DNA of 64,000 nt from the NCBI RefSeq assembly GCF_023159225.1, contig NC_063171.1:62001-126000 (forward strand). Direction: 5' to 3'. Numbering within the stretch: position 1 is the first letter of the stretch; the number at the start of each line of letters is the position of its first letter. This DNA is from Perognathus longimembris pacificus (Eukaryota; Chordata; Mammalia; Rodentia; Heteromyidae). Under the pieces are notes generated by a model. That model was not told where the DNA came from, ran no database searches, and worked only from the letters and a program-made list of their open reading frames with translations. Of this stretch, positions 5,248 through 47,123 are shown piece by piece. The position numbers were made by a program, and so were the translations under genes.

Positions 5248-5249
5248 AG

Positions 5250-5267
5250 TGGCGCCCTGACAAGGAC
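5250..5267 (+). other. Primer binding site, tRNA-Lys type
   Basis: TGGCGCCC begins two bases after the LTR end. The 18 bases match the tRNA-Lys3 complement at 15 positions by eye. A lysine-tRNA site is typical of betaretrovirus-like elements. Confidence 0.75.
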
Positions 5268-5370
5268 TTGAACACCTAGGATGAAATGGACCCCGCTTTG
5301 GCAAGGACGTTCGATCACTTGGGAAAAAGAGGGAGAGAGTATGGAAAAGAATCATCGGGAGTGAAATACA

Positions 5371-8338: not shown

Positions 8339-8543
8339 GGGCTGGGAATATGGCCTAGTGGCAAGAGTGCTTGCCTCCTACACATGAAGCTCTTGGTTCA
8401 ATTCCCCAGCACCACATATATGGAAAAAAGCCAGAAGGGGCGCTGTGGCTCAGGTGGCAGAGTGCTCGCCTTGAGCGGGAAGAAGTCAGGGACAGTGCTC
8501 AGGCCCTGAGTCCAAGGCCCAGGACTGGCCCCCCAAAAAAAGT
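8339..8543 (+). mobile_element. Dimeric tRNA-related SINE, copy 1
   Basis: Starts GGGCTGGGAATATGGCC, has the A-box-like GGCCTAGTGGCAAGAGTGC and a B-box-like GGTTCAATTCC, then a second tRNA-like half (GCGCTGTGGCTCAGGTGGC) and a short A-rich tail. The duplicated ATTGCTG(GG) at 8332-8340 and 8544-8552 is a short target duplication. It lies inside a domain A monomer. Confidence 0.88.
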
Positions 8544-8632: not shown

Positions 8633-8697
8633 CCCAATTCCCCGAACTACTTACCTTAACAAACTACAGCTGTTTTCAATCACCGTGGAGATATTTC
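8633..8697 (-). repeat. Inverted satellite A fragment
   Basis: About 65 bp read as the reverse complement of a domain A monomer (reverse reading runs from GGAGATATTTC-like sequence through the core box to TTCGGGGAATTGG). This is the only satellite piece I see in the opposite orientation. Its right end shares ATTTC with the L1 that follows, a likely microhomology junction. Confidence 0.8.
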
Positions 8698-16000: not shown

Positions 16001-19000
16001 ATATAATGGAATATCCCAGAGGTGATTGAGAACAGGTGTACCTTGTTAAGGTAAATAGTTCGAGGAATAGACAAACTAGTCTAAAAATTGAAAAGAATTC
16101 TCTTAATGGTGAGTAAAGACTGATAAATCATCTTTAAGGAAGTACACTCAAAAAAGTGGTGAGTAGTTTTATATAAGGGAATATCCCGACAGTGATTGAG
16201 AACAGCTGTAACTTGTTAAGGTAATTAGTTCGGGGAATTGATAAACTACCCTAAAAAAGTCAAAAGAATTGTCCTTGTGCTGATTAAAGACACATAAAGC
16301 TTCTTTAAGTAAGTATACACGAGACCGTGGTAAGTAGTTCTATGTAGGAGAATATCAGAAGGGGAATATCAATGCGATTATTGAGAACAGCTGTAGCTTG
16401 TTAAGTTAATTAGTTCAGAGAATTGATAAACTACTCTAAATAAGTCATGATAATTGTTGTTTTTGTGATTAAAGACAGATAATGCTTCTTAAGGAAGTAC
16501 ACCTGAGAACGTGGTTAATAGTTTTGTATAAGGGAATGTCCAGTCGGTGATTGAGAACAGCTGTAGCTTGTTAAGGTAATTAGTTCGGAGAATTGATAAA
16601 CTCTTCTAAAGAAGTCAAAAGAATTGTCTTTGTGGTGATTACAGACAGAAAAAGCTTCTTTAAGGAAGTATACCTTAGAATGTGGTAAGTAGTTCTATAT
16701 AAGGGAATATCCCGGGGGTGACTCAGAACAGCTGTAGCTTTTTAAGGTAATTAGTTTGGGGAATTGAGAAACTACTCTAAAAAAGTCAAAAGAATTGACT
16801 TTGTGGTGATTATAAAAAGGTAAAACTTCTTTATGGAAGTATACTTGATAACGTGGTGAGTAGTTCTATATAAGGGAATATCCTGGCGGTGACTGAGAAC
16901 AGATGTAGCTTGTTAAGGTAATTATTTTGCGGAATTTACAATCAACTCTAAAAACGAGAAAAAATTCTTTTTGTGATTACTACAGACTGATAAACCTTCT
17001 TTAAGGAAATGTACCCAAGAACGTGGTAAGTAGTTCTCTACAAGGGAATATCCTATTGGTGATTGAGAACAGTTGTAGCTTCTTAAGGTAATTAGGTCGG
17101 GGAATTGATAGACTACTCTAAAAAGCAAAAAGTATTGTCCTTGAGGTGATCAAAGACTGATAAATCTTCTTTAAGGAAGTATACACGAGAACTGGGTAAG
17201 TAGTTCTATATAAGAAATATCAAGCCAGTTATTGAGAACAGCATTAGCTTGTTAAGGTAATTAGTTTGGGGAATTGATAAACTTCTCTAAAAAGTCAAAA
17301 GAATTGTCTTCCTGCCAATTAAAGACAGAAAAACTTCTTCAAGGAAGTATACCTGAGGAAGTGGTAAGTAGATATTAATAAGGGAATATACCAGCGGTGA
17401 TTGAGAAGAACTGTAGCGTGTTACAGTAATTAGTTCGAGGAATGATAAACTACTCTAAGAAAGTAAAAAGAATTGTCTTTGTTTTGATCAAATACAGATA
17501 AAGCTTCTTTAAGTATACCTGAGAACATGGGAAGTAGTTCTATACAAGGGAATATACCGGCGGTGATTGTGAACTGCTGTGGCTTTTTAAGATAATTAGT
17601 TCTGGGAATTAATCAACTACTCCAAAAAGTCAAAAGAATTGTCTTTGTGGTGATCAAGTACAGACAAAGCTTCTTTACGTAATTATACCCCAGAACGTGG
17701 TAAGTAGTTCTTTGTAAGGAAATATGCCGGCAGTGATTGAGAATGGCTGTAAATTTTTAAGTTAATTAATTTGAGGAATTGACAAACTACTCTAAAAAAG
17801 TCAAAAGAATTGTCTTTGTGATGATTAAGGACAGATAAAGCTTCTTTAAGGAAGTATACCTGAGAACGTGGCAAGTACTTTATATAAGGTAGTATGCTGG
17901 CGAAGATGGAGATCAGTGGTAGCTTCTTAAGGTAATTAGTTCTGAGAATTGATAAACTACTGAAACAAAGCCAAAATAACTGTCATTGTGGTGATTAAAG
18001 ACAGATAAAGCTTCTTTAAGGAAGTATACTCATGAACATGGTAAATAATTCTTTATAAGGGAATATCCCAGCGGTGATTGAGAACAGCTGTACCTCGAAA
18101 TGGTAATTATTTCAGGGAATTGTTCAACTACTCTAGAAAAGTCAAAAGAATTGTCTTTGTCGTGGTTAAAGACAAATAAGCTTCTTTAAGAAAGTATACA
18201 CGAGAACGTGGGAAGTAGTTCTATATAAGGGAATATCCCGGCAGTGATTGAGAACAGCTGTAGCTTGTTAAGGTAATTAGTATGTGGAATTGATAAACTA
18301 CTCTAAAAAATTCAAAAGAATTGTCTTTGTAGTGATTAAAGAGAGATAATATTTCTTTAAGGTAGTATAGAGAGAACGTGGGAAGTACTTCTATATAAGG
18401 GAATATCCTAGCGGTGTTTGAGAACAGCTGTAATTTGTGAAGCTAATTAGTCGGGGAATTGATAAACTAGTCTACAAAAGTGAAAAGAATTGTCTTTGCG
18501 GTGACTAAAGACAGATAAACCTTCTTAAAAGGAAGCATACCCGAGAACGTGGCAAGTAGTTTATATAAGGAAATATATGGGCGGAGATTGAGATGAGTGT
18601 TAACTTTTTAAGGTAATTCATTCTGGGAATTGATAACCTACTCAAAAAAGCCAAAAGAATTGTCCTTTTGGTGATTATACTCCTGGCGGTGATTGAGAAG
18701 AGCTTTAGCTTGTTAAGGTAAGTAGTTTGGGGAATTGTTGAAATACACTAGAAAGTCAAAAGAATTTTCTTTGTGGTGTTTAAAGACCGATAAAGCTTCT
18801 TTAAGGAAATATACCCGAGAACGTGGTACGTAGTTCTATATAAGGGAATATCCTGGCGCTTATTGAGAACAGCTGTAGGTTTTTAAGGTAACTAGTTCGG
18901 GGAAATGATAAATTGCTCTAAAATGTCAAAAGAATTGTCTTTGTGGTGATTAAAGACATATAATGCTTCTTTAACAAAGTATACTTGAGAACGTGGTAAA

Positions 19001-19282
19001 TAGTTCTTTATAAGGAAATATCCCAGCATTGATTGAGGACAGATGCAGCTTGCTAAGGAAATTAGTTTGGGGAATTGAGCTACTGCTCGAAAAAGTCAAA
19101 AGAATTGTATTTGTGGTGATTAAAGACAGATAAATCTTCCTTAAGGAAGTATACCTGAGAAATTGGTAAGTAGTTCTATATAAGGGAATATCCCGGCGGT
19201 GACTGAGAACATTTGTAGCTTGTTAAGGTCATTAATTCCAGGAGTTGATAAACTACTCTAAACAAGTCTAAAGAATTGTCTT
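13060..19282 (+). repeat. Satellite domain B (~171-bp monomers)
   Basis: About 36 same-strand monomers, for example cores at 18241, 18411 and 18581 (170-bp steps). They share the core box with A but carry GGTAATTAGTTCGGGG, ACTACTCTAAAAAAGTC, GATTAAAGACAGATAAAGC, CTTCTTTAAGGAAGTATAC and CTATATAAGGGAATATCCC. Register with domain A is kept through the A/B change near 13060. Minus-strand frames such as 15657-15902 are chance frames. Module lengths are about 45, 44, 45 and 37 bp. Confidence 0.93.
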
Positions 19283-20746
19283 CTTGGAGACCTCCAGGAA
19301 GAAGGCAGAGGAGCAACAGAGCACAAGCTAAGCTCCCTCTGACATCGCAATTTTCCCACTCCAGGAAAAATTTGATTCCTAGAAAGACAACCCAAGTAAG
19401 TTATAACAGTATAGGGATTCTGGCCAGAAAGGAAAAATCAATTTTGCTGGCCTGAAAACACAGATTTGACCTCCGGGCAGTGACCCGCCACCATGTCATT
19501 GCCAGCATTGGCACAGTACTCCACACTCCGTGCACTTAAAGCACATCCCAGGGACCAGGGAGAAATCCTCCAGGTGGCAACAGACACACGTGGATCGCAG
19601 GCTGAACACGGACTGGCCAAAATCGCAGAGAAAGTGTGACTACCCCACGAAAGACATTCACACTCATGCCCACAGAGCAGCTCCTTGAAGGTAGCCCTTC
19701 CCCCACTGCAAGAGCAAAGCGCCATCTTTGACACTGGCATAGGGTCATACCAGACTGGAACTATAGTGGGCCTGGGGAAAGCGAGGACAAAAAAGCCACC
19801 TTTGACAAGGGCAAGAGGGACCTACCAGTGAGAGCCAGCTCCACCCAGAAGAACCCCCCCTTGCCCAGGAGGAAGGCTCATCCTGGGCTGTGGCTCACAC
19901 ACTTGTGTGAACTCAGCCAGAGATGCCCAGGCCTTCCCACCAGAATTTCTCAATTAAAACTGAAAGCGGCGAGCTGCTACCAGTGGCAAGGAACAACCTG
20001 ACGGGAGAATAAAGAGTACCCGAGACAGATAAATGGTCCCATCTCGGAGGAAGCCCAATACCCAGCCTGAAACAGAGCTGAATTCCAAAGCCAGCTCTGC
20101 CCAGGAGGCTTCCCAACCCAGGAGGTAGGAACCTCCCTGAGGCAAGTGATTCTCAGCCAGGTAAACCAGGCCAGAGGTGCCCCACTCTGCTGAGTCCACA
20201 GCATATTCAAAGCCAGGCGTTAAAGGAAGTAGCCCCAGAGCAGACGGGAGGAGCCAGGGTTCCCATGACTGTTCACATCCCCATCTACAGTGGACACCCA
20301 AGGCCTACTTGCAAGCCCTGTGAACCACAGAGCCCCAGGATTTCACTAACAGGGGAGGAGGGTCTAAGCAGATCCACCACCTGCAAACTGAAAGCAAGTC
20401 AAACCAGCCAAGCAGCAAAATAGACTGCAGACCATCACAAGGACACCAGAGACTGTAGAAAGCCCACCCAAACAAGGAAGACTCAATTTTTTTTTTCAAA
20501 ACATTTTTAAACGTTTTCTTTTTTTTTTTAAATTCAAAACGTCATTTTTTTTTTGTTTAACATATTTACTTGTTTCTTTTATCAAGTTTTTTTTTTGGCT
20601 GTTCATTTTTCAATTTTATTTCTTTTTTTAATAATGTTTCTCTGTTTTGTGTATTTGTCTTCCACTAATTTTTCTTTATCTCTCACTTCATATTCTCTTT
20701 CTTTAAAAATGTACTTTCCTATGAATAACGCCTCCACTCTTTTCTT
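19283..20746 (+). mobile_element. L1 5' UTR fragment without the rest of the element
   Basis: Matches the 5' UTR of the L1 at 38693 (shared phrases GGGATTCTGGCCAG, GGAAAAATCAA, GGCCTGAAAACACAGATTT, GACCATCACAAGGACACCAGA-like sequence) and also the antisense L1 at 59730-61670. It ends about 30 bp before the point where the 38693 copy continues with CTAATTCTCC. ORF1, ORF2 and the 3' end are missing. It contains about 475 bp (about 19890-20363) that the 38693 copy lacks. It exactly separates satellite domains B and C. Confidence 0.88.
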
Positions 20747-23700
20747 TGGTAAACTACTTTTAAATTGTCAAAAGGAATGTCTCGGGCTGATTTAAGACTG
20801 ATCTAGCTTCTTTATGGGATTATACCGGTAAATATTTAAACAGTCGTACATAAGGGAGTATGGTGATGGTGATGGTGACTGAGAACAGCTGTGGCTTGTT
20901 AATGTAGTTATATTGGAAAATTGCTAAACTACTCGTAAATTATCAATGGAATGTTTGCATGCTGATTTTGGACAGATCTAGCTTCTTTAATGGATTATAA
21001 CACTTAAGAATTTACACAGTCCTTTATAAGGGAACATCCAGGTGGTGATTGAGAAGTGCTGTAGCTTGTTAATATAAGTATGTCAGGAAGTATAGAACTT
21101 CTCTTAAATGGTCAAGAGGAATGTCTAGGTTCTGACTTAAAACAGACCTAGCTCCTTTAAGGGATTGTAAACAGTAAGAATTAAAACAGTCCTATATAAG
21201 GAAATATCCAGTTGGTGATTGAGAACAGCTGTAGTTTGTTAACATAATTATATAGAGGAATTGGTAAACTACTGATAAATTGTCAATAGGAATGTCTGCA
21301 TGCTAATGTAAGACATATCTGGCTTCTTTAAAGGATTATAATCTGTAAGTTTTTTAACAGTCATAAATAAGGAAACATCTGGGTGTTGACTGAGACAGCT
21401 GTAGCTTATGAATGTAGTTATATTGGGAAATTGATAAAGTATTCATAAATTGTCAATAGGAATGTTTGCATGTTGATTTAAGACAGATGTAGCTTCTTTA
21501 AGGAATTATAACTGGTAAGAATAAAAGCAGTATTATATAAGGGAATATCTGGGTGGTGAATGAGAATAGCTGTAGCTTGTTGATATAATTATTTGGGAAT
21601 TTGTAAACTACTCGTAAATTGTGAAAAAGGATGTCTGTGTGAAAATTAAAGACAAATCTATCTTCTTAAAGGGATTATAATCAGTAAGGATTTAAACAAT
21701 CCTATAAAAGGGAATATCCGGGTGGTGATTGAGAATAGCTGTAGCTTGTTAATGTAACTATATCGGGGAATAGGTAAACTACTCATAAATTGTCAAAAGA
21801 ATGTTTGTGTGCTGATTTAAAACAGATCTAGCTTCTTTAAGAGATTAAAAACGGTAAGGATTAAAACAGATATATACAAAGGACATCCAAGAGGTGATTA
21901 AGAACAGCTGTGGCTTGTTAATGTAATTATATTGTGGAATTGGTAAACTTCTTGTAATTGTCAAAAGGAATGTCTCCATGCTGATTTAAGACAGATCTAG
22001 CTTCTTTAAGGGATTATAACCGGTAAGTACTTACACAGTCCTATAAAAGGGAATATCTGGGTGGTGGATGAGAACAGCTGTAGCTTGTTAATGTAATGAT
22101 ATAGGGAAATAGGTATTCTACTTGTAAAGTGTCAAAAGGAATGTCTGTGTGTTGATTTAAGAAAGATGTAGCTGATTTAAAGAATTATAACCAGTAAGCA
22201 TTAAACAGTCCTATATAATCAATATTCCAGAGCTGATAGAGAGCACCTGTAGCCATATCTGGAGAGATCAACATTCTAAGGAATTTCTGTGTGCTGATTT
22301 AAGACAGATTTAGCCTCTTTAATGTATTACAAATGGTCAGGATTTAAACAGTCCTATATAAGGGAATATCTTTGTAGTGATTGAGAACAGCTGTAGCTTG
22401 TTAATATAGATATATTGGGGAATTTTAAACTACTTATAATTGTCCAAAAATGTCTCTGTGCAAATTTAAGACAAATCTAGCTTCTTAAAGGAATTATAAC
22501 CGGTAAGGATTTAAACAATCCCATATAAGGTAATACCACAGAGGTGATTAAGAACACCTGTACCTTGTTAATGTAACCATATCGGGGAATTGGTAAGCTT
22601 CTTGTAAATTGTCAAAAGGAATGCCTCCGGGCTGATTTAAGACAGATCGAGCTTCTTTAAGAGATTATAACCAGTCAGTACTTACACAGTCCTATACAAG
22701 GGAATATCCAGGTGGTGACTGAGAAGAGCTGTAGCTTGTTAATGTAATGATATAGGGAAATTGGTATTCTACTTGTAAAGTGTCAAAAGGAATGTCTGTG
22801 TGTTGATTTAAGAAAGATGTAGCTGATTCAAAGAATTATAACCAGTAAGGATTAAATAGGCCTATATAATATCCCAGTGCTGATAGAGAACACCTGTTGC
22901 CATATCTGGAGAGATCTACATTCTTCAGGGATTATATCCGGTAATATTTAAACAGTCCTCTTTAAGGGAATATCTGGGTGTTGGTTGAGAACAGCAGTTG
23001 CTTGTTAATGTAACCATAAGGGGGAATTGGTAAACTACTTGGAAATTGTCAAAAGGAATGTCTGAGTGATGATTCAAGACAGATCTTGCTTCTTTAAGTG
23101 AATATCCAGTAAGGATTTAAACAGTCCTTTATAGGGTGATATCGGGCAATTGCTAAACTTCTTGTAAATTGTCAAAAGGGATGTCTCCAGGCTTATTTAA
23201 GACAGATCTATCTCCTTTAAGGGATTATAACCGGTAAGTAATCACACAGTCCTATATAAGGGAATATCTGGGTGGTGGTTGAGAACAGCTACAGCTTGTT
23301 GATGTAAAGATATCGGGGATTTGGTAATCTACTCGTAAATTGTCAATATGAAAGTCTGCATGCTATTTAAGACAGATCTAGCTTCTTTAAGGAATTGTAA
23401 CCTGTAAGGATTAAAATACTTCTATATAAGGGAATATCCTGGTGGTGATTGTGAACAGGTGTACCTTGTTAATGTAGTTATATTGGGGAATTGGCAAACT
23501 AATCCTAAATTGTCAAAAGAATGTCTCCATGCAAATTCACGACAGATCTAGCTTCTTCAAGGCATTGTAACCGGTAAGTATTTAAACAGTACTATATAAG
23601 GGAATATCCGGGTGGTTATTAAGAACATGTGTAGCTTGTTAATATAACTATATCAGAGAATTGATAAACTACTCGTAAATTGTCAAAAGGAATGTCTGCA

Positions 23701-26289
23701 TGCTGATTTAAGATGGATCTAGATTCTTTAAAGGATTATAACCTGTAAGGATTTAACAGTCCTACATAAGGGAAAATCTGTGTGGTGACAGAGAGCAGCT
23801 GTAGCTTGGTAATATTATTATATTGGTGAAATAGCAAACTACTTTTCTGCTTGCTGATTCTTTTTTTTTTTTTTTTTTGCCGGTTCTGGGTCTTGGACTC
23901 AGGGCCTGAGCACTGTCCCTGGCTTCTTTTTGCTCAAGGCTAGCACTCTGCCACTTGAGTCACAGCGCCACTTCTGGCCATTTTCTGTATATGTGGTGCT
24001 GGGGAATTGAACCCAGGGCTTCAAGTATACGAGGCAAGCACTCTTGCCACTAGGCCATATCCCCAGCCCATCTGAGTGCTGATTTAAGACAGATCTAGCT
24101 TCTTTAAGGGATTATAAACTGTAAGGATTAAAACATTTCTATATAATGTAATATCCAGGTGGTGAATGAGAAAAGCTGTAACTCGTTAATGTAATTATGT
24201 TGGAAAATTGGTAAACAACTCATAAATTGTCAAAAGTATTGTCTGTGTGCTTATTTAAAACAGATATAGCATCTTTAACGGATTGTAACCGGTAACGATT
24301 CAAACAATCCTATATAAGGGAATATCTTTGTGGTGATTGAGAACAGCTGCAGCTTGTTAATATAACTATATAGAGGAATTGTTAAACAACTCGTAATTTG
24401 GCAAAAGGAATGTCTGTGTGCTGATTTAAGACAGATCTAGCTTTTTTAAGGGATTATATCCAGCAAGGATTTAAACAGTCCTACATAAGGGAATATACAC
24501 GCGGTGATTGAGATCAGCTATAGCTTGTTAACCTAATTCTAACAGGGAATTGGTAAACTACTTGTAAGTTGTCAATAGGAATGTCTGTATGCTCATTTAT
24601 GACAGATGGAGCTTCTTTAAGGGATTTTAACCAGTAAGTATTTAAACAGTCATATATCTGGGAATATCCGGGTTTTGATTGAGAACAGCTGTAGCTTGTT
24701 AATGTATCCATATCGAGGATTGGTAAGCTACTCATAAATTGTCAAAAGGAATGTCTGCGTGATGATTCAAGGCAGATCTAGCTTCCTTAAGGGATTAAAA
24801 CCGATAAGTATTTAAACAGTCCTTTATAAGGGAAAATCCGGGTGGTGATTGAGAACAAATGTATCCGCTTAATATAACTATATCGGGGAATTGTTAAACT
24901 ACTCGAAATTTTTCAAAAAGAATGTCTGTGTTGATTTAAGACAGATCTAGCTTCTTTAAAGGATTATTACCAGTAAGGAATAAAACAGTTATATATAAGT
25001 GAATATCTGGGTGGTGATTGAGAACAGTTGTGGCTTGTGAATGTAATTACATTGGGGATTGAGTAAACTACTCGTAAACTGTCAAAAGGAAGGTCTGCGT
25101 GCTGATTTAAGAGAGATCTAGCTTCTTTAAAGGATTAAAACTGTAAGTATACAAACAGTAATTTATAAGGGAATATCCGGGTTGTGATTGAGACCAGCTG
25201 TAGCTTGTTAATATAACTATATCGGGGAATTGTTAAACTACACGTAAATTGTTAAAAAGAATGTCTGTGTGTGCTGATTTAGGAGACATCTACCTTCTTT
25301 AAGGGAAGATATCTGGTATGTATTTTAAAAATCATATACAAGTGAATATCCAGATGTTGATTGAGAACAGCTGTAGATTGTTAATGTTACCATAATGGAG
25401 AATTGGTAAACTACTCTTGAAACAAAAGGAATGTTTGCGTGCTTATTTAAGACATATCTTTCTTCTTTAAGGCCTTATAACAAGTAAGTACTTACTCAGT
25501 CTTACATAAGGGAATATCCGGGTGGTGATTGAGAATAGCTCTTGCTTGTTAATGTAATTATTTCGGGGAATTTGTAAACTGCTCGTAAATTGTCAATAGG
25601 CAACCGGTAAGGATTAAAACAGTCCTATATAAGAGAATATCTGGGTGGTGATTGCAAACAGCTGTAGCTTTTTAATGTAACCATATTGGGAATTGGTAAA
25701 CTACTCATAAATTGTCCAAAGGAATGTCTGCGTGCTCATTTAAGACAGATCTAGCTTCTTTAAAGGATTAGAACTGGTAAGAATTTAAACAGTCCTATAT
25801 AAGGGAATATTCGCGTGCTGTTTGAGAAGTGCTATAGCTTATTAATGTAATTATGTCGAGGAATTGGTAATCTACTCGAGAATTGTCAAAAGGAATGTCT
25901 GCATGGTGATGTATGACAAATCTAGCTTCTTTAAGGGATAATAACTGGTAAGTATATAAACAGTACTATATATGCAGATATCCGGGTGGTGATTGAGAAA
26001 AGCTGTAGCTTCTTTACATCAGTATATTGGGGAATTGTTAAACTACCTGTAAAATGTCAAAAAGAATGTCTGTGTGCTGATTTATGATAGATCTAACTTG
26101 TTTAAAGATTATAACCCCTAAGGATTAAAACAGTTCTATATAAGGTAATATCCTCATGGTGATTGAGAACAGCTTTAGATTATTAATGTAATTTTATCGG
26201 GGAATTGGTAAACTACTCGTAAATTGTCATTAGGAATGTCTGAATTGTGATTTAAGACAGATCTAGCTTCTTTAAGGAATTTTAACCGG
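20747..26289 (+). repeat. Satellite domain C (~171-bp monomers)
   Basis: About 31 same-strand monomers with the same core box followed by TGTAATTATATCGGGG, ACTACTCGTAAATTGTC, GTGCTGATTTAAGACAG, ATCTAGCTTCTTTAAGG, GATTATAACCGGTAAGG and CAGTCCTATATAAGGG. Modules are about 45, 44, 45 and 37 bp. Several monomers are internally deleted (for example around 22200-22280, 22860-22930, 23130 and 25600). No gene is visible. Confidence 0.93.
23860..24070 (-). mobile_element. Dimeric tRNA-related SINE, copy 2 (antisense)
   Basis: Reverse complement of the same SINE: poly-T at 23861-23878, then the antisense body ending CATATCCCCAGCCC. The flanks TCTGCTTGCTGATT (23846-23859) and TCTGAGTGCTGATT (24071-24084) are a slightly diverged target duplication in a domain C monomer. 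Confidence 0.9.
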
Positions 26290-27798
26290 GACATTGTTAA
26301 AGACTTTTATAGTTGTTTAAGGGAATATCCGGGTGGCGGTTGAGAACAGCTGTAGCTTATTAACTTAATTATATTGTAGAATTGGTAAACTACTGGTAAA
26401 TTTTCAAAAGGAAATCCTGGTGCTTATATAAGACAGATCTAGCTTCTTTAAGGTATAATAGCCAGAGACTTCTTAAACAGTTCTATAGCTGTATAAGTGA
26501 ATATCCAGGTGGAGATTGGAACAGCTGTAGCTTATCAGTGTAATTATATTTGGGAATTGGCACAATACTCCTAAATTGTCAAAAGAAATGTCTGCGTGTT
26601 TATCTAAGACAGATCTAACTTCTCTAAGGGATTATCATGCCGAACTCGGTAAACAATTTTATATAAGGGAATGTCCAGTTGGTGATTGAGAAGAGCTGTA
26701 TTTTGTTAATGTAATTATATTGAGCAATTGGTAAAACTACTCAAAAATTGTCAAAAGGAATTTCTGTGTGCTGATGAAAGAGACATCTAGCATATTTAAG
26801 TGATAATAACCAGAATCTTGGTGAACAATTCTACTGTTATATAAGTGAATATTCCTGTGGTGATTGGAACAGCTATAGCTTGTTAATGTAATTATATCCA
26901 GAAAGTGGAACAATACTCGTAAATTATCAAAAGGAATATCTGCAAGTTCATGTAAGACAGATCTAGCTTCATTTAGGGTTTATAACTGGGAACTTGGTAA
27001 ACAATTCTGTGTAAGGGATAACCGTATAGTGATTAGAACAGCTGTACCTTGTTAATGTAATTATATCACAGATTTGATAAAATACTCGAAATTTATCGAA
27101 AGGAAGGTGTGCTTGCTGGTTTATACAGATCTATAACTGGACCTCTTTAAACAATTTTATAGTTGTATAAGGGAATGTCCGGGTGATGATTGAGAACAGC
27201 TATAGCTTGTTAATTTAATTACATCGGGGAATTTTTAAATTACTCATAAATTGTCAAAGGGAATATTTGGGTGCTGATTTAAGAGACATCTACCTTCTTT
27301 CAGGGATTATAATAGGGAATTTGGTAAACAATTTTTATAAGGGAATATCTGGGTCGTGATTGAAAACAAATGTAGTGTGTTAATGTAATTATATTGGGGA
27401 ATTGTGAAAATACTCGTGAATTTTCAAAAGAAAATTCTGCGTGCTGATTTAAGACAGATCTAGCTTTTTTAATGGATTATGAACGTGAATTTGGTAAAGA
27501 ATTCAATAGTTGTATAAGGGAATTCCAGGTGGTGATTTAGAATAGCTGTAGCTTGTTAATGTAATTATATTGGGGAATTGGTAAACTACTCAGAAATTGT
27601 AAAAAGGAAAGTATGGGTACTGTCTAAGAGAGATGTCACTTCCTTAAGAAATTAAAACCTGGAATTTGGTAAAAAAAAAAAAAAATTCTATACAAGGGAA
27701 TATGCAGGTGGTGATTGAGAACAGCCATAGCTTGTTAATGTGATTATATTGGGGAATTGATAAAATACTTGTAAATTGTCAGAAGGAAAATCTGTGTG

Positions 27799-28322
27799 GT
27801 GATTCCTGCCGGGCTAGCCGGCAGGGGAACAGGAATCCTGACTGAGGGGAGGCGGGGATAAGGAAAAGGAAAAATAAGGCAAGAGAAAAAAGACAAGAGA
27901 CAAAGATGGGGTACGGGAGGTCTGCAGCCTTAAGGTTGAACCTCAAGACTACAGCAACAGTTTATTCTTAACTTCCAGCTTATATGCAGTTTTGGAACCA
28001 GAGAATAGCATAGGGTTGTTAAAATTTAAGAACACACAGGGGCTTTGAAGTTCGCAAACATTTGATTATAGTAAACACAGGAAAAGGTAGATTAACATAG
28101 GAATCTACTCCAGCGGACATAGCAAGGTGCAGACAATGGCAAAGAAATTCCAGATAGTGGCTGTGAGCAAAGGTCCTTGCATCTGGTACATGCTAGTGAT
28201 AACAGCACAGCCCGTGGTAAGGATGAATCTAGCTGCAAGTTTGGCTCCCGACATTCTGGCGACATCAGCACAGCCAGAGGTCAGGATGAGCTTAGCTGCT
28301 CGCTCAGCTCCCTACAGTGATT
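27799..28322 (-). mobile_element. Solo LTR, class II ERV family 1, with 6-bp target duplication
   Basis: The LTR occupies 27805-28316 and reads in minus orientation (TGTAGGGAGC... to ...GGCAGG). GTGATT flanks it at 27799-27804 and 28317-28322; this 6-bp duplication is typical of class II ERVs. It shares the TATA region (TGCATATAAGC) with the LTR at 4810-5247. The U5 end carries the perfect inverted repeat CCTGCCGG/CCGGCAGG, and two bases lie between the terminal CA and the duplication. No internal sequence remains, so it most likely arose by LTR-LTR recombination. The frame at 28127-28354 is fortuitous. Confidence 0.9.
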
Positions 28323-31300
28323 TTAGACAGATCTATCTTTTTCATGGATTATAAAAGGAAATTTGGTAAACAATTCTATAGTTGTATAAGGGAATGTCCA
28401 TGTGGAGATTGAGAACAGCTGTGGCTTGTTAATTTAACTATATTTGGGAATTGGTAAGCTACTCTTATATTGTCGAAAGAATTGTCTGTGTGCTGATTTC
28501 AGATAGACCTAGCTACTTTAAGGGATAATAAGCGGAAACTTGGTAAATAATTCTACAGTTGCATAAGTGAATATCCGGGTTGTGATTGGAACAGCTGTAG
28601 CTTGTGAATATGATTATATTGGGAAATTGATGAAATACTCGTCAATTGTCAAAAGGAAAATCTGCGTGCTGATTTAAGATAGATCTAGCTTTTTGAAGGG
28701 ATTATAAAAGGGAAATTGGTAAACAAATCTATAATTGTATAAGTGAATATCCAGGTTGTGATTGGAACAGCCGTAGCTTGTTAATGTAATTATATTGGGG
28801 AAGTGTTAAAGTACTCATAAATTGGAAAAAAGAATGCCTGCATTCTGATTTAAGACAGATCTAGCCTTTTTGCTTGATTATAACCGGTAACGTGGTAAAC
28901 CGTTCTATATAAGGGAATATCCGAGTGGTGATTAAGAACAGTTTTCGCTTGCTAATGTAACTATATCAGGGAATTGGAAAAATACTCGTAAGTTGTCAAC
29001 AGGAATGTCTGCCTGCTGACGTAAAAGACATCTATTTCTTTAAGTGATTATAACTGGGAACTTGGTAAACAATTCTGTAGTTTTATAAGGGAATGTCCCG
29101 GTGGTGATTGAAAACAAACTGTAGCTTGTTCAGGTAATTATATCGGGAAATTGGTAAAATTTTCATAAATAGTCCAAAGCAATATCTGCATGTTGAATTA
29201 AGTGAGACATACCTTCTTTGACGGATTATAACTGGGACCTTGTTAATCAATTTTATAGATTTGTAAGGGAATGTCCGAGTAAGGGAATGACTGAGAACAG
29301 CTGTAGCTTTTTAATATAATTATATCAGGAAATTGATACAATACTACTAATTCCCAAAAGGCATGTCTGTGTGCTGATTTAAGAGACATCTAGCTTCTTT
29401 AAGGGATTGTAACAGGGAACTTGGTAAACAATTCTATATAAGGGAATAACAAGGTGGTGATGGAGAACAGCTGTAGCTTGTTAATATGATTATATCGGGG
29501 AATTGGTAAAGTAACCATAAATTGTCAAAAGGATTTTGTGCGTGTTGATTTAAGACAGATCTGGCTTCATTCAGGGATAATAACTGGAAACTTGGTGAAC
29601 CATTCTATGGTTGTATAAGTAAGTATCCGAACAGTAATTGAAACAGCTGTTGCTTGTTAATGTAATTGCATTGGGAGATTCTAAAATACTCGTAAATTTT
29701 CAAAAAGAGTGTCTGCTTTCTGATTTAAGAAAGACCTAGCATTTTTAAGGGATTATAACCGGGAACTTGGTAAACAATTTTATAAGGGAATATCTGAGTG
29801 TGATTCTGAATAGCTGTAGCTTGTTAATATAATTATATCGGGAAATTGGTAAATTACTCATGTCAAAAGGAATATCTGCATGCTGACTTAAGAGAGATCG
29901 AGCTTCTTTAAGGGATTATAACCAGGATCTTGGTAAACAATTATATATAAGTGAATATCTGGTTGCTGATTGAGAACAGCTGTAGATTGTGAAAGTGATT
30001 AAATCGGAAATTGGTAAAGTACTCCTAAATTGTCAAAAGGATTGTCTGTGTCCTGATTTAAGACTGATCTAGCTTCTTTGAGGGATTAAAAACTGGGAAA
30101 TTGGTAAACAATTATATAAAAGGGAATATCCAGGCGGTGACTGAAAATAGCTGTGGTTTGTTAATATAAGTATATTGGGTAATTGGAAAAATACTTGTAA
30201 ATAGTCAAAAGAAATGTCTGCGTGCTTATTTAAGACAGATATAGCTTATTTAAAGGATTATATACAGGAATTTGGCAACCAATTCTATAGTTGTATAAGG
30301 GAATGTTCGTTAGGTGATTGAAAAAAGCTGTAGCTTGTTAATGTAATTATATCAGGAAATTGGAAAACTAATCAGGAACTGTCAAAAGGAATGACTGAGT
30401 ACTGATTTGAGATATCTAGCTTATTTAAGGGATTATAACTGAGAACGTTGTATATAATTCTATATAAGAGAATATCCTGTTGGTAATTGAGAACAGCTGT
30501 AGCTAGTTATTGTAATTATACCATGCAATTGGTAAAATACTCATAAATTGTCAAAAGGAATGTCTGCATGATGATTTATGACAAATCTTGCTTCTGTAAG
30601 TGATTATAATTGGGATCTTGGTACCCAATTCTGTAGTTGTATAAGGGAATGTCTGTGTTGTGATTGAGTATAGCAATAGCTTGTTAATGTAATTATACCG
30701 GATAATTGGTATAATCCTTTTAAATTGTCAAAATGAATTTCTGCGTGCTGATTTAAGACTAATCTAGCTTATTTATAACCGGGACTTTGGTAAACAATTC
30801 TATAGTCGTGAGAGGGAATGTCCGTGTGGTGATTAAGAACAGCTGTAGGTTGGCAATGTGATTATATCGGGGAATTGGTAAACTACTCACAAATTGTCAA
30901 AGGAATGTCTGCGAGCTGATTTAAGAGACATCTAGCTTCCGAAAGGGATTTTAACCAGAAACTTGGTGAAAAAAAATTCTATATAAGGGAATAACTGGGT
31001 GGTGATTGAGAACAGCTGCTTCCTGCTAATGTAATTATATCAGATAATTGGTAAATTACTCGAAAAGTGTCAAAAGGAATGTGTGCAGGCTTATTTAATT
31101 GAGATCTAGTTACTTTAAGATATTATAACTGAGAACTTGGTAAACAATTCTGTATAAGGGAATATCCGGGTTGTGATTGAGTACAGCCATAGCCTGTTCA
31201 TGTAATTATATCTGGGAACTGGTAAACTCGTAATTGTCAAAAGACACGTCTATGAGTTGATTTAACCGGGAACTTGGTAAACGAATCTACATAAGGAAAT

Positions 31301-33177
31301 ATCTCCGTGGTGATTGAAAACAGCTGTAGCTTGTTAATGTAATTTTATTGGGGAATTGGAAAAAATACTTGTAAATTGTCAAAAGGAATGTCTGCCTGTT
31401 GATTTAAGAAAGATTTAGCTTTTTTACAGGATTATTAATGGGAATTGTTAAACAATCTTATAGTTGTATAAGGGAATGTTCTTGAGGTGATTGAGAACAT
31501 CTGTAGGTTGTTCATGTAATTATATTGTAGTATTAGTAAACGTTTTGTAATTTGTCAATAGGAGTGACTGCTTGCTGATTTAAGATATATATAGCTTCTT
31601 AAGGGAGTATAACTGTGAAATTTGTATATAATTCTATATAAGAAAATATCCCGTTAGAAATTGAGAACAGCTGTAGCTTGTTAAAGTAATTATATCATGG
31701 AATTGGTTAAATACTAGTAAATTGTCAAAAGGAATGTCTGTGTGCTGATTTAAGACAGATCCAGCTTCTTTAAAGATTATAACTGGGAATTTGGTAAACA
31801 GTTCTGTAGTTATATACGGGAATGTCCTTGAGGTGATTGAGAAAAGCTTTGGCGTCTTAATGGAATTATATCGAAGAACTGGTTAAATACTTATAAATTG
31901 TCAATCAGAATGTTTGGATGCTGATTAAGACATATCTAGCTTTTTTAAGGATTATAACTGGGAGGTTGATAAGCAATTCTGTAGTTGTGTAGGAGAATGT
32001 CGGGGTTGTGATTGTGAGACGCAATAGCTTATTAATGTAATTATATCAGGGAACTGATAAAATACTGGCAAATTGTCAAAAGGAATGTCTGCATGCTAAT
32101 TTAAGACCGATGTAGCTTCTTTGTAACCAGGACCTTGGTAAATGATTCTGTAGTTGTATGAGGGTGGTAATTGAGAATAGCTGTATTTATGAATGTAATT
32201 ATATGAAGGAACTGGTAAAAAAAATACATATAAATTTGCAAAAGAAATATCTGGGTGCTGATTTAAGACAGATCTAGTTTCTATAAGGAATTATAACAGG
32301 GAAGATGGTGAACAATTCTAAAGTTATATAAGGGAATGTAATGACTGAGAATAGCTCTAGCTTGTTAATGTAATTATATCGGGGAATTGGTAAAATACTC
32401 GTAAATTTTCAAAAGGAATCTATGCGTGCAGATTTAAGATAGATCTAGCTTCTTTAAGGGATTTTAACCGCGAACTTGGTAAACAATTCTATAGTTGTAA
32501 CAGGGAATGACCAGGTGGTGATTGAGAACAGCTGTGCCTTGTTAATATAATTATACCTGGTAATTGGTAAACTACTTGTAATATGTCAAAAAGAATGTCT
32601 GCGTGATGATTTAAGAGAGATCTAGCTTCTTTAAGGGATTAAAACCCGAAACTTGGTAATCAATTCTATGGTTGCATAACGGATTGTCCTGTTGCTGATT
32701 GAAAACAGCTGTAAGTGTTAATGTAATTTTATCATGGAATTGGTAAACTATTGGTAAATTATCCAAAGGAATGCCTAGGTGCTGATTTAAGACAGATGCA
32801 GCTTCTTTATATTTGGGGACTTTGTAAACACTTCTATAGTTGTATAAGGGAATGTCTGTGTTGTGATTGAGAACAGCTGTACCTTTTAAATGTAATTATA
32901 TCAGGGAATTGGTAAAATAGTCGTAATTGTCCAAAGGAATGTCTGCGTACTGATTTAAGACAAATCTAGCTTCTTAAGGGATTATGACTGGGACCTTGGT
33001 AATCAATTCTATAGTTATATAAGGGAATGTCCAAGTAATGATAAAAAAACAGCTGTAGCTGGTTAATGTAATTATAATGGAGAATTGGTAAAATACTCAT
33101 AATTTATCAAAACGAATGTCTGGGTGCTGATTAAAGACAGATCTAGGTTTTTTAAGGGATTAAAACCGGGAACTTGG

Positions 33178-33409
33178 GGCTGGGGATATGGCCTAGTGGC
33201 AAGAGTGCTTGCGTTGTATACATGAGGCCCTAGGTTAGATTCCCCAGCACCACATATACAGAAAACGGCCAGAAGTGGCGCTGTGGCTCAAGTGGCAGAG
33301 TGCTAGCCTTGAGCAAAAAGAAGCCAGGGACAGTGTTCAGGCCCTGAGTTTAAGGCCCAGGACTGGCCAAAAAAAAAACAAAAAAAAAACAAAAAAAAAA
33401 AAAAAAAAA
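33178..33409 (+). mobile_element. Dimeric tRNA-related SINE, copy 3
   Basis: Body begins GGCTGGGGATATGGCC and ends with a long A-rich tail (33368-33409, with two C interruptions). The target duplication CGGGAACTTGG is perfect at 33167-33177 and 33410-33420 and is part of a domain D monomer. Perfect flanks and a long tail suggest this is among the younger insertions. Confidence 0.93.
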
Positions 33410-33849
33410 CGGGAACTTGGTAAACATTTATATAGTTGTATAAAGGAATGTCTGGGTGGTGATTGACAAGAGCTGTAGCTCAATAATGTAACTATATTAG
33501 GGAATGGTAAAGTACTCGAAAATGTCAAGAGGAATGTCTGCGTGCTTATTTAGGACAGATCTTTCTTATTAAGGGATTATAACCTGAAACTTAGTAAAGA
33601 ATACCATAGTTTCATAAGGTAATGTCCAAGTGGTGATTGAGAACAGCTGTAGCTTGTTAAAGTAATTAGATTGGGGAATTGGTAAAATACTTGCAAATTT
33701 TCAAAGGAATGCCTGGGGGCAGATTTAAGACATATCTATATTCTTTAAGGGGTTATAATTGAGAACTTGGTTAAAAAAAACTCGATAGTTGTACAAGGGA
33801 ATGTATGGGTAGTGATTGAGAACTGCTGTATCTTTTTAAAGCTATCATC

Positions 33850-36800
33850 GCTGGGAAGTTTGTCAACAACTCACTTTGTTAAAGGAATATATGCGTGCTG
33901 TTTGACAACAGCTATAGCTTGTTAAAGGGAGTATCTCCAGGAAATTGGTAAACAACTGTTACTTTGGTAAAGGGAATGTCCACCTGCTGATTTCGGAGAG
34001 CTCTAGTTAGCTAAATGAATTATCTACTGGACTGTGGTGAAAAATACTTGTAAAATGTAAAAAAGAATGATAGGTGCTGATTTACCACCCATTTATCCTT
34101 TTTAGGGATTATAACAGCTGTATCTTGTTGTAATTATATCAGAAAATTGTTAAAATACTTGTAAATTTTCAAAAGGAATATCTGTGTGCTGATTTAAGAC
34201 AGATCTATCTTCTTTAAGGGAATATAACTGGGAACTTGGTAAACAATTTTGAAGTTCTATAATGGAACTTCCTAGTGGTGATTGAGAGCAGCTGTAGCTT
34301 GTTAACGCAATGATATAGAGGAATTGGTAAATACTTATAAATTGTCAAAAGGAATGTATGCGTGCTGATTTACAAGCAATTGTTCCTGTTTTCCAGAATG
34401 CAAGTAGAGGGTTATGTAAACAACTAGTAAATTGTTAAAGGGAATGTGCTGGTTATGATTGTAAACAGCTGTAGGGTGCTAAATCGGTTATCTCTCCCAG
34501 GAAGGAAACAACTCTTAAGATGATAATAAACAGTTCTAGGTTGTTTAAAGGAATTACCTAGTGCATAAGGCTATCAAGTGTGGAGATCTTAACGCATTCA
34601 CCTGGGGGATGTTAGGATGCATCACTTAAGTTTCTAAAGGGATTCCATCGCTAACGAGGTCAATAACTGTTCAGTTTTTCCAGGATTTCCCTAAGAGATG
34701 GTGTTAAACTACTGTGAAATTTTTTAAGGGATAATTGCAGGGAACTTGCTAAACAACTCTAAATTTTTAAAGAAATTATCTTGGTGATATTCGTGAACAG
34801 CTGTAGGTTTTTAAGAGGAGTATCTCAGGGATGAGGTAAAGAAGTGTTAAGTTTTTACACAATGTACCTAGAGGAACCCTAACGTTAACACTAAAAGTAA
34901 GCCTAACCCTAACCCTAACTTTTCTCTCAAGATGGTTGTGAACAAATGTAGCTTGCTAAATGGATTATCTTGGCAAAGTTCTAATCAGCTGTACCATGTT
35001 AAAAGGATTATCTTGGTGATGATTGAACACAGCTCTAGTTCCTTAAATGGATTGTCTGGGGGATGTGGTAAGGAACTGTCCCTCTTTTCCAGAAGTAAGT
35101 AGAGGGTTAAGTTAACAACTTGGAAATTGTTATTGTGTTGTTTATGATTGTAAACAGCTGTAGGCCCTTATAGGCATTACCTCAGGGAGGAGGGAGAAAA
35201 ACTGTTAAGAAAATAATAAATAGTTGTAGGTTTATTCATGCGATTACAACGGGGATCAGGATATCAAGTGTTGAGATCTTAACGGATTAATCTAGGGGAT
35301 GTTGGGTTCAACTCTTATGGTTCTAAAGGAATTATATCAGGAAAAAGGTCAATAACTGCTCAGGTTTTACAGGAATTTCCTAAAAAGATGGTGTTAAACA
35401 ACTCTGAAGATGTTAAAGAGATTATCGCAGGGGAATTGGTAAACAACTCTAAATTTTTTTAAAAGATTATCTGGGTGATACTAGCTATAGGTTGTTAAAG
35501 GGAGAATCTCGGGGATGAGGTAAAGAATTGTTAAGATTTTACACAACATACCTAGAGGTGCTCTAACAGAAACCCTAATGTTGAAAGGAAATGTAACCCT
35601 ACCCCTAACTGTAGATGATTGTGAACAGCAATAGGTTGTTAAAGGGTTTATCTCGGCCATGTTCTAAACAGCTGCAGCTAGTTTAAGGGATTATATTGGT
35701 GATAATTGTACACAGCACTAGTTCTTAAATGTGTTTTCTGGGGAATGGGGTAAGCATCTGTTCATCTTTTCCAAAACGCGAATAGAGGTTTATGTAAACA
35801 ACTGGTAAATTGCTAAAGAAAATGTGTTGGCTATGATTGTGAACAGCTGTAGGTCATTATATTGGTTATCAAAGGGAGAAGGGAAACAACTAATAAACAG
35901 TTGTAAGTTATTAAAAGGGACTACCTTATGGATCAGCTTGTCAAGTGATGAGATCTTAAGGGATTCACTTGGGGGATGTTAGGATGCCACTCTTACGTTT
36001 CTAAAGGGATTCTCTCATGAAAGAGGTCAATAACTTCAGTTTTTACAGGAATTCCCTAAGAAGTGGTGTTAAACAACTGTGAAGAGGTTAAAGAGATTAT
36101 CGCAGGTGACATGGTAAACTCTCAAGTTTTAAAAAGATTATCTGGGTGATATTTGTGAACAGCTGTATGGTCTTACAGAGAGTATTTCGGGGATAAGGTA
36201 AAGAACTGTTAAGATTTTACGCAATGCACCTAGAGGTGCCCTAACATTAACTCTAAATGTAAGCCTAACCCCATCCCTAAATCTTATCTGGGGATGATGG
36301 TAAACAGCTGTAGTTTTTAAAGGGATTATCTCCACAAGTTTCTGAACAGCTGTATCTTATCAGTGATAATTGTACACAGCTGTAGCTCTTAAATGGATTA
36401 TCTAGTGGAAGCAGTAAGCATCTGTTCACCTTTTCCAGAATGTACATAGAGGCTATTGTAAACAACTGGTAAATGGGTAAAGGGAATGTGTAAACCACTG
36501 TAGGTCATTCAACAGGATTTATCAGGGAGGAGGGAAATCAGTGTTTGGATGATAATAAACAGTTGCAGATTGTTTAAAGGGATTACCTCCCAGATAAGGT
36601 TATCAAGTGTACACATCTTAACAGATTCACCTTGGGGATGTTAGGATTCAATCCTTAACTTTCTATCTGGAAAGAGGTCAATGAATGTTCAGTTTTTACA
36701 GGATTTACCTAAGAGATTGTGTTGAACAACTGTGAAGATGTTAAGGGATTATTGCACGGGACTTGGCGAACAACTCTAAAGTTATTAAAGAGATTATCTG

Positions 36801-37784
36801 GGTGCTATTTGTCAACAGCTGTAGGTTGTTAAAGGGAGTATCTAACAGATCATGTAAAGAACTGTTAAGATTTTTCACAATGTCCCTAGGTACTGAATGG
36901 TAGCCCTAATGTTATGCCTAAATGTAAGCCTAACCAAATCCTACCCCTTACCCTTATCTGAGGATGATTGTGAACAGCTATATCTCATTAAAGACATTTT
37001 CTCAGCAAGGTTCTAAACAGCATAGCTTGTAAAGGGGATTATCTCAGTGATGATTGTACACAGCTCTAGCTCACTAAAAGGATTATCTGAGGGATCTAGT
37101 AGGCAGCCGTTCTTCTTTTGCAGAATCTAAATATAGGGTTATATAAACAGCTGGAAAATTGTTAAAGGGAATGTGTTGGTTATTATTGTAAATAGCTGTA
37201 GGGCATTAAACGTGTTATCTCGTGGAAGATGGAAACAATTGTTAAGATGATAAATGGTTGTAGGTTGTTTAAAGGGATTACCTCGGGGATAAGTTTATGT
37301 AGTTTTGCAATCTGAACGGATTCACCTGGGGAGTGTTATGATGGAACTCTTGAGTTTATCAAGGGATTCTATCAGGAAATAGGTCAATAACAGTTTCCTT
37401 TTTACAGAAATTTCTTAAGAGATGGTGTTAAACAACCGTGAAGATATTAAAGAGATTATCGAAGGGGACATGGTAAACCAGTCTCAAGTTTTTAAAGAGA
37501 TTATCTGGGTGACAATTGTGAACAGCTGTAGGTTTTTAAAGGGAGTATCTTGGGGATGAGGTAAAGAATTTTTAAGATTTTTCCCAATTGACCTAGAGGA
37601 ACCATAACTTTAACCCTAAATGTCACCCTAAAGCTAATCCTACCCATAACTCATCCCTAGAGATGATTGTGAACAGCTGTAGCTTGTTAAAGGGATTGTC
37701 TCGGCATGGTTCTAAAGAGCTGTACCTTGTTAAAGGGATTATCTTGTTGATGGTTGTACACAGCTCACTCTAGCTCATTAAAAC
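33850..37784 (+). repeat. Satellite domain E (~680-bp higher unit of ~44-bp modules, CCCTAA-bearing)
   Basis: The 170-bp order fades (some D-like monomers persist at about 34080-34380). The sequence becomes a run of about 44-bp modules of the form AACAGCTGTAG-TTGTTAAAGGGATTATCTCGG. Consecutive module starts can be read at 34706, 34751, 34795 and 34838. A higher period of about 665-700 bp is marked by CCCTAA-rich stretches near 34890, 35575, 36245, 36910 and 37610. No gene is visible. Confidence 0.88.
34878..34919 (+). repeat. Interstitial telomere-like CCCTAA tract
   Basis: Within a domain E unit, a perfect CCTAACCCTAACCCTAAC stretch lies at 34902-34919, preceded by degenerate copies. Related tracts recur at about 35575-35609, 36240-36283, 36899-36955 and 37600-37655. 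Confidence 0.85.
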
Positions 37785-46143: not shown

Positions 46144-46536
46144 GAACTGTTAAGATTTTACACAATGTACATATTGGCACCCTGATTGGCACCCTAAATG
46201 AAACTGTAACCCAATAACTAACTCATATCTGGAGATGATTGGGAACAGCTGTAGCTTGTTAAAGGCATTATCTCGGTGGTGACTGTACACAGCTCAAACA
46301 AGTTAAGGGGATTTTCTGGGGGATGGGGTAAGCAACTGTTCATTCTTTCCAGAGTGTAAGTAGAGGGTTATGTAAACAATTGGTAAATTGTTAAAGGGAA
46401 TGTGTTGGTTATGATGGTAAACAGCTGTAGGTCATTATAGGGGTTATCTTTGGGAGGAGGGAAACAACTGTTAGGATGATAATAAACAGTTTTAGGTTGT
46501 TTAAAGGGATTACCTCGGGGATCAGGTTATTAAGTT
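46144..46536 (+). repeat. Satellite domain E, resumed
   Basis: Same modules as 33850-37784 (GGGAACAGCTGTAGCTTG, GTTAAAGGCATTATCTCGG, AGAGTGTAAGTAGAGGG). It includes the degenerate CCCTAA part at about 46180-46220. It resumes at a different point of the unit from where it stopped at 37784, so some satellite was lost or the insertions came in more than one step. Confidence 0.88.
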
Positions 46537-47123
46537 TTGAGATTTTTTTTTAATAATAATTACCTATTGATTGTCACAGTGATGTACAGAGGGGTTACAG
46601 ATTCATATGTAAGTCCACGGGTACCTTTCTTGTACTATTTGTTAACTCCTTCCTCACTCCCCCCTCCCCACTTCCCCATCCCCTCTCCCCTCATGTGTTG
46701 TTCAGTTGCTTTACACCAAATGGTTCAGCAAGTATTACTTTTGGATTCATTTGTCTTTTTATCATTTGTTTATCGATTTTGATATTCCCTTTCACTGACC
46801 TAGTTCTAATACCAGTATATACAGTATCCAGGGTGCTCAGAGGAGATACAGTGGTAGCACCAGGACAACCACAGGAAGGGGATACAAGAGGATCATCGAC
46901 AAAAGAAGCTACAGTTTTTCATGATATGTTGAATGTAATTCCATCAGTGATATAGCACTAGTTTCCATAAAATGGAGTTCATTTCACTTACCATCATCTT
47001 ATGTGTTTATAGGGGTAGACCTATTGGGCTCCTGTGGTCCTCTACTGTGACTAGCCTAAACCTGTGCTAATTATTCCCTATGAGGGAAACCATAGAGTCC
47101 ATGTTTCTTAGGGTCTGGCTCAC
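46537..47123 (-). other. L1 3' UTR, copy 2
   Basis: Antisense of the L1 end, starting with T9AATAATAATT and TTGTCACAGTGATGTACAGAG. The C-rich stretch near 46650-46690 is the complement of the G-rich 3' UTR tract. Confidence 0.85.

Follow-up and report, generated by a model that had tools for sequence, protein, structure and literature searches.

A tandem satellite of Perognathus longimembris pacificus with 44-, 88-, 176- and 171-bp arrays in the nested order predicted by stepwise doubling

The 64,000-nucleotide stretch of DNA analysed here, referred to as the window, is C11:62001-126000 of one genome (Perognathus longimembris pacificus; 2.21 Gb, 6180 contigs). It contains a satellite arranged as a head-to-tail tandem array, with domains designated A to E (Table 1). 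Four related modules, M1 to M4, make up its 171-177 bp monomer as two 88-bp halves, and arrays of four kinds, with units of 44, 88, 176 and 171 bp, are present in the same genome. These arrays are related to each other in the nested order predicted by stepwise doubling. Very probably, the satellite grew from a 44-bp to an 88-bp and then to a 176-bp unit, followed by a 6-bp loss that gave the 171-bp form. Contigs of the genome are denoted C1, C2, C3 and so on, with the figure after a colon giving the position in Mb (C1:64.25, C1:68.03).

Modules of the monomer and arrays of four kinds

A preliminary description of the window had read the monomer as a tetramer of a ~44-bp module. Indeed, a cyclic 44-column profile trained on domain E alone parses the 177-bp consensus of domain D into exactly four modules of 43, 44, 45 and 45 bp with no gaps between them, and the 176-bp version of this consensus into modules of 43, 44, 45 and 44 bp. 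Consensuses of domains A, B, C and D each outscore 200 of 200 dinucleotide shuffles with the same profile, part of module 3 or 4 being unmatched in A and C. When single modules of the D consensus are compared with 500 shuffles, the score of M2 is reached once and those of M1, M3 and M4 never. The unit is divisible into related subrepeats above shuffle controls, adjacent modules being connected via the profile only. Counts exclude modules below 24-34 bases or columns, modules with unusual lengths and monomers of fewer than 150 columns.

Direct alignment of the module consensuses, which had been proposed as a check, gives a clear pairing: none of 2000 shuffles aligns as well as M1 with M3 or M2 with M4. 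The M3-M4 and M1-M4 alignments are weak (9 and 23 of 2000 shuffles reach the score), and M1-M2 and M2-M3 are without direct similarity (989 and 726 of 2000). Judging by these pairwise alignments, the monomer by itself plainly shows the 88-bp level, and support for the 44-bp level has to come from outside; the 44-bp kinship that M2 has with M1 and with M3 rests on domain E and on arrays elsewhere. Autocorrelation against dinucleotide shuffles, also proposed for each domain, finds the expected 44-bp peak in domain E, where it has the top z of all lags to 800 (z 11.7). In the main part of D the strongest lag is at 88 bp (z 14.6), and C, B and the larger stretch of A peak at 170/171 bp. The first part of D, which starts near 25650, has two nearly equal lags of 170 and 88 bp (z 11.2 and 11.1). 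Modules of domains A-D are labelled solely 1-4 and are sequential apart from a few skips.

Loci elsewhere in the genome were located by E and island queries (the island is the 88-bp-type block at the D/E junction) and by the exact M1 motif; they were chosen on sequence similarity, not on lag structure. Window sequence served as the seed of the 44- and 88-bp profiles, so as to set their register. Of 73 loci, 23 were labelled, and ten (L004, L012, L016, L024, L047, L051, L055, L060, L066, L072) were left out of the lag comparison as overlapping, mixed, E-type or having few modules; among them, L055, L060 and L066 appear 88-type and L047 and L072 mixed. Module-lag identity was calculated for 18 arrays, including 13 from elsewhere in the genome, and is given as odd lags/lags 2 and 6/lags 4 and 8; shuffles reach 0.59-0.64 under the forced parse, and only differences between lags count. 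Arrays of the 44-bp kind have flat identity over all module lags and are found on C6 (0.69/0.69/0.68), C8 (0.68/0.68/0.68), C7 (0.64/0.66/0.64) and C22 (0.63/0.63/0.62). The 88-bp kind, with lags 2 and 4 equal and odd lags low, includes arrays on C3 (0.60/0.73/0.71), C1:68.03 (0.59/0.73/0.73), C2 (0.55/0.68/0.67), C19 (0.57/0.68/0.67) and C24 (0.56/0.68/0.68). Lag 4 exceeds lag 2 in the 176-bp kind, represented by C13 (0.57/0.68/0.73), C5 (0.57/0.65/0.73) and window domains D (0.58/0.65/0.74) and, by lag, C (0.58/0.63/0.73). Finally, lag 2 falls to the odd-lag level and lag 4 is high in the 171-bp kind, namely, window B (0.57/0.57/0.75) and A2 (0.59/0.59/0.74) and the diverged C1:64.25 (0.58/0.58/0.70) and C1:64.27 (0.59/0.57/0.68). 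The intermediate periods, said earlier to survive side by side, thus survive beyond the window as 44-, 88- and 176-bp arrays.

Raw autocorrelation without a profile was run on ten loci or window stretches and gives 45 bp for C6 (z 22), 89 bp for C3 (z 37, versus 17 at 178 bp and 16 at 44 bp) and 171 bp for C1:64.25 (z 29.5). The C3 array alternates odd and even modules with hardly a break (45 odd and 47 even, with 1 other and 7 too short to label); those of C19 and C24 also contain some M2- or M3-like modules. Three 44-bp arrays, L071, L032 and L026, lie apart from the tetramer matches seen, the latter two at 0.4-1 Mb from contig ends.

The phylogeny of 26 module consensuses from 44-, 88- and 176-bp arrays places them as the stepwise model predicts. 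The odd module of the 88-bp unit (88-odd) forms a clade with M1 and M3 (support 99), the even module (88-even) forms a clade with M2 and M4 (support 97), and the 44-bp sequences fall between the two; periods 44, 88 and 176 are present and nested in the tree, as in a stepwise-lengthened satellite. The approximately unbiased (AU) test rejects monophyly of all M modules (2e-5) and of odd plus even dimer modules (5.7e-7), as well as the alternative pairings M1M2/M3M4 (2.6e-6) and M1M4/M2M3 (4.9e-4). Correspondingly, 88-odd agrees with M1 at 35/42 and with M3 at 37/42 positions, M1 and M3 agreeing at only 31/40, and 88-even agrees with M2 at 32/40 and with M4 at 37/41, versus 29/39 for M2 and M4. 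Of 9 columns that distinguish M1 from M3, 88-odd carries the 44-bp state in 8. From the form of the unrooted tree, with the 44-bp consensus in the middle, we infer that the 44-bp unit came first.

Domain E, the island and the 6-bp indel

Modules of the first copy in domain E begin within about 1 bp of the starts listed in the preliminary description (34706, 34751, 34795 and 34838). Domain E is not, however, the simple 44-bp repeat described there: it comprises five copies of a higher-order unit (690, 677, 662 and 695 bp and one cut off). The copies are 76-82% identical, and modules within the unit are 64% identical on average, that is, less than the copies to each other, as is characteristic of a higher-order repeat. 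A telomere-like insert of degenerate CCCTAA sits at the same place in each of the five copies; 10 of the 12 CCCTAA in domain E are in these inserts, and the maximum in 1000 shuffles is 5. Because of its higher-order unit and inserts, E is a separately reorganised 44-bp array, not a plain ancestral stage. Nor does it end at 37784, as had been assumed, since the array resumes at 46144-46540 behind inserted interspersed repeats. More E-type arrays are found outside the window at C11:145-152 kb. Among the matches listed for an E copy, those spanning most of the unit are only on the contig of the window, and the best on another contig, C8, covers residues 121-622 of 677 at 65%. The tetramer was also considered as a direct slice of the E higher-order unit and this candidate was rejected, since 274 of 300 shuffled module orders align at least as well.

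The island at the D/E junction contains modules with slight preference for either member of the M1-M3 or M2-M4 pair. The own-minus-partner score is 4 or less in 5 of its 6 modules versus none of 515 other modules in domains A-D and the D/E transition. Where M1 and M3 differ, odd island modules share the state of E (9:2 and 1:9), unlike copies in domain D (Fisher 1.9e-5 and 4.1e-5). All four pairs of island modules two apart align (0 of 1000 shuffles), as do three of the five pairs one apart (5, 1 and 0 of 1000 shuffles; 69 and 646 for the other two). A hybrid origin of the island modules is conceivable. A second 88-bp island between tetramers, L072 (C6:36.181-36.184 Mb), is 85% identical to the island of the window over 286 bases; this likeness may reflect an old exchange between chromosomes.

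The monomer lengths, given previously as 171-177 bp, fall into two classes, 176-177 and 170-171 bp, which differ mainly by one 6-bp indel, segment GTTGTA, in M4. Length classes of M4 were assigned from the 177-column parse; a pattern-based count was dropped as too coarse. The segment is present in 17/25 classified monomers of main D and 5/10 of the first part of D, and the long-to-short ratio in the D/E transition is 5/0. It is found in 0/20 monomers of domain C (2 intermediate), 0/22 of B, 0/16 of A2 and 1/7 of A, that single monomer being at the array edge. The 176-bp arrays elsewhere retain it, namely, C13 in 16/19 (2 short, 1 intermediate), C5 in 11/11, C19 in 8/8 and C6:36.18 in 10/12 (2 intermediate). 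Two of three 171-bp loci on C1 are without it (C1:64.25, 0/2; C1:64.27, 0/9). The longer form is carried by the 44-bp consensus and by the even half of the 88-bp consensus, suggesting that the short form is likely derived. The arrays of the genome and the module tree bear out the 44-88-176 series of the preliminary description, with two amendments: its 44-bp stage in the window is organised as a 690-bp higher-order repeat, and the 171-bp form, not distinguished there, probably stems from a later 6-bp deletion. The 171-bp stage was mapped by exact M1 motif matches and three loci, L001, L004 and L006.

Proposed history and its rivals

Tetramer and dimer modules adjoin in parsed arrays of the window, of C19 and of C6:36.18. 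On C5, C16 and C22, unparsed matches to the 44-bp or island queries adjoin 176-type matches or are at most about 11 kb away. Along C1, the 171-bp loci (64.25-64.28 Mb) are followed by those of 88 bp (68.02-68.03 Mb), and the 44-bp query has unparsed matches at 68.20 Mb. Other 44-type matches are scattered, some of them close to the end of a contig (87.70 of 88.06 Mb on C5, 84.27 of 84.69 Mb on C7 and 37.14 of 38.12 Mb on C22). Exact M1 motif matches, among those listed, cluster in few places per contig. Across the window, the score of the E-only profile per 44 bases runs from 5.4 in domain A through 6.0, 9.9, 11.0, 13.6 and 13.5 to 16.2 in the D/E transition.

These arrays would be accounted for if a 44-bp tandem repeat had given rise to an 88-bp unit and the latter to a 176-bp unit, most likely by out-of-register (unequal) exchange or segment amplification, involving first two and then four neighbouring modules. 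Modules would have diverged inside each new unit, which was then homogenised, and a later 6-bp loss would have turned 176 into 171 bp. Successive rounds may have pushed older arrays outward, which would fit the layout of the arrays just described, so that the window, from left to right, would pass from the most derived 171-bp monomers through 176-bp monomers and an 88-bp relic to the array of 44-bp modules with its 690-bp unit and telomere-like insert. The arrays are likely pericentromeric. No function is claimed for the satellite beyond that of an amplified and homogenised satellite.

The array of C19 bears on the second doubling. At 11 places in this 88-bp array an M2-like module is followed by an M3-like one, such that the pair spans a dimer boundary, and 7 of 10 intervals between pairs are 177-182 or 424-433 bp. 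Positions 1-6600 of this locus (L069) consist of 88-bp dimers in which M2-M3-like pairs recur about every 600 bp (424+178). If an odd-M2-M3-even segment was amplified from an 88-bp array, the tetramer register would result; the C19 array suggests, without proving it, that the tetramer was cut out in this way and that a trace remains. Even modules of C19 lean to M4 overall. Compared with the rest of the array, modules before the pairs do not lean further to M1 (n 11, p 0.14), nor do those after them lean further to M4 (n 5, p 0.98). Of the nine pairs listed, six are clear-cut, and in the other three M2 and the next class differ by no more than 2 in score; with a third of the pairs not clear-cut, this reading is held slightly less firmly. 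That the birth record of the 44-, 88-, 176- and 171-bp units is kept entirely as arrays and, in addition, the second doubling is seen in the ~600-bp dimer unit of C19 is a tentative proposal, to which we give somewhat less than an even chance. Conversion from the neighbouring 176-bp array on C19 is a possible alternative source of the M2-M3 pairs.

Several observations weigh against stepwise doubling, in addition to the dissimilarity of M1-M2 and M2-M3. Domain E barely exceeds shuffles under a 44-bp profile from elsewhere (0.62 vs 0.60). Identities of the 44-bp arrays on C7 (0.64) and C22 (0.63) are little above those of shuffles (0.60 and 0.59), rising to 0.66-0.77 without flanks, and the loci were found through their likeness to E and the island. 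Raw lags fail to split 88 from 176 bp in window D (z 18 vs 11), where one module is also labelled odd-dimer once dimer references are added. The root on the 44-bp consensus is our choice, 88-even has the 44-bp state in just 6 of 9 polarised columns, and the window-only tree is weak, pointing in the same direction with p 0.085 for M1M2/M3M4 and 0.0485 for M1M4/M2M3. In the island, even modules are less clear than odd ones (0.0034, and 0.085, not significant, versus M2 copies), the last even module is plainly M2-like, and odd modules 33821 and 33996 do not align mutually (415 of 1000 shuffles). The per-monomer trend of the E-only profile score (Spearman 0.61, n 109) exists between domains only, being +0.58 within A2 and -0.48 within B. 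The poorly parsed L004, in the 171-bp region, has six long and two short M4.

In the reverse order, the tetramer would have come first, and unequal exchange between M1M2 and M3M4 would have produced 88- and 44-bp arrays from it late, as contractions or hybrids. In its favour, one switch from M1 to M3 would roughly explain two of the three odd island modules. Where M1 and M3 agree against E, the odd island modules are in the M state eight times and in the E state once, and C19 and C6:36.18 mix tetramer and dimer modules within one array. However, no single switch accounts for odd module 33996 or for even modules 33865 and 33951, which are mosaics. Furthermore, 88-bp arrays are present on five large contigs with the 44-bp state in those 8 of 9 columns of the odd consensus, and the 44-bp consensus is positioned inside neither the odd nor the even clade. 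We consider this order improbable. Amplification of four diverged neighbouring 44-bp modules in one step, without an 88-bp stage, is more doubtful still. It would agree with the window-only tree, where tetramer modules are not a clade apart from E modules (AU p 0.024), but not with the pairing of M1 with M3 and M2 with M4, all other pairings being rejected, nor with the existence of 88-bp arrays, and the direct slice of the E unit is not favoured. As for A+T-rich low complexity without common ancestry, M1-M2 and M2-M3 taken alone look chance-like; dinucleotide-shuffle controls and the separate 44- and 88-bp arrays refute it, leaving it a negligible probability.

Comparison with known satellites and features of the window

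Traces within finished units have long been the basis for inferring that satellites lengthen stepwise, and a stepwise-periodicity model of the mouse major satellite was reportedly put forward by Southern in 1975. In the family described here, by contrast, each lengthening step can be sampled as its own array, and the junction of successive stages is within a 64-kb window; thus, order, tempo and module boundaries of each doubling become measurable instead of assumed. As a process, stepwise lengthening is already known from mouse, and the unusual part is the completeness of the surviving series. The 234-bp unit of the mouse major satellite consists of four different 58-60 bp simple repeats (PMC8122249), and to that extent both families have a unit of four related subrepeats. 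The likeness is one of structure, and the present family differs in having separate extended one-, two- and four-module arrays in one genome. Primate alpha satellite has monomeric arrays in pericentromeres and, in human, an age gradient (PMC7767330), which is the parallel for outward displacement of older arrays. The 171-bp alpha satellite is similar in unit length and in its ordered series of domains; unlike it, the unit here splits into four modules. In contrast to alpha satellite, neither strand of the window has a CENP-B box when up to one mismatch is allowed in the 15-bp core; matches with two mismatches (31 and 23 on the two strands) were rejected, many being far from the satellite. Domain E resembles higher-order repeats with telomere-like segments in its 690-bp unit and CCCTAA-rich insert in five copies, and differs in that E matches spanning most of the unit are, among those listed, on the window's own contig. 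A satellite with 44-, 88- and 176-bp periods was not found in the open-licence literature, where the listed titles on kangaroo rat, pocket gopher, Dipodomys, Thomomys and Perognathus likewise yielded nothing on this family, and SINE names led to nothing useful.

The features of the window are listed in Table 1. Neither tRNA genes nor Rfam families at gathering score were found in it. In the first part of domain A, autocorrelation is higher at 340 bp (0.589) than at 171 bp (0.526), hinting at a further doubling. A short interspersed element (SINE) is inserted in domain C at about 23860-24069.

Table 1. Satellite domains and associated features in the window (positions count from its first nucleotide; LTR, long terminal repeat)
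Feature	Position	Strand	Remarks
Domain A, first part, 171-bp tetramer monomers	7236..8340	+	340-bp lag above 171
Domain A2 (A continued), 171-bp monomers	10433..13800	+	M4 short form in 16/16 classified
Domain B, 170/171-bp monomers	13800..19290	+	M4 short form in 22/22 classified
Domain C, 170/171-bp monomers	20745..25650	+	M4 short 18, intermediate 2, long 0
Domain D, first part, 170- and 176-bp monomers mixed	25650..27804	+	M4 long 5, short 5
Insertion splitting domain D, presumably solo LTR-like	27805..28316	.	6-bp flanking duplication GTGATT
Domain D, main part, 176/177-bp tetramer	28317..33177	+	Order 1-2-3-4 with one skip; M4 long 17, short 8
SINE, presumably ID-derived	33178..33409	+	Flanking duplication CGGGAACTTGG
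Tetramer block between domains D and E	33412..33820	+	
88-bp-type island, six modules	33821..34085	+	Slight M1 vs M3, M2 vs M4 preference in 5/6 modules
Tetramer block 1-2-3-4-1-2 preceding domain E	34113..34374	+	
Domain E, higher-order unit of 662-695 bp (~14-16 modules of 44 bp)	34375..37782	+	Last copy cut off at 37782
CCCTAA telomere-like insert, E copy 1	34877..34918	+	
CCCTAA telomere-like insert, E copy 2	35561..35608	+	
CCCTAA telomere-like insert, E copy 3	36239..36280	+	
Telomere-like insert, E copy 4	36904..36950	+	
Telomere-like insert, E copy 5	37601..37643	+	
Domain E continuation	46144..46540	+	344/394 positions as in E unit consensus; interspersed repeats inserted between

We take the interspersed repeats of the window to be L1-like elements, ID-derived SINEs and LTR pieces; such repeats would point to a rodent, perhaps one from the group of beavers, gophers and kangaroo rats. 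Positions 1-4810 are occupied by a tandem array with a period of ~670 bp and CCTAT clusters, in which pieces are 81-87% identical to one unit; its sequence is presumably L1-like 3' sequence. It is followed at 4810-7235 by what we assume to be part of an endogenous retrovirus, with an LTR and a gag-like stretch, abutting the first satellite monomer. A piece of a domain A monomer at 8634-8700 is inverted, at the border of an inserted L1-like element.

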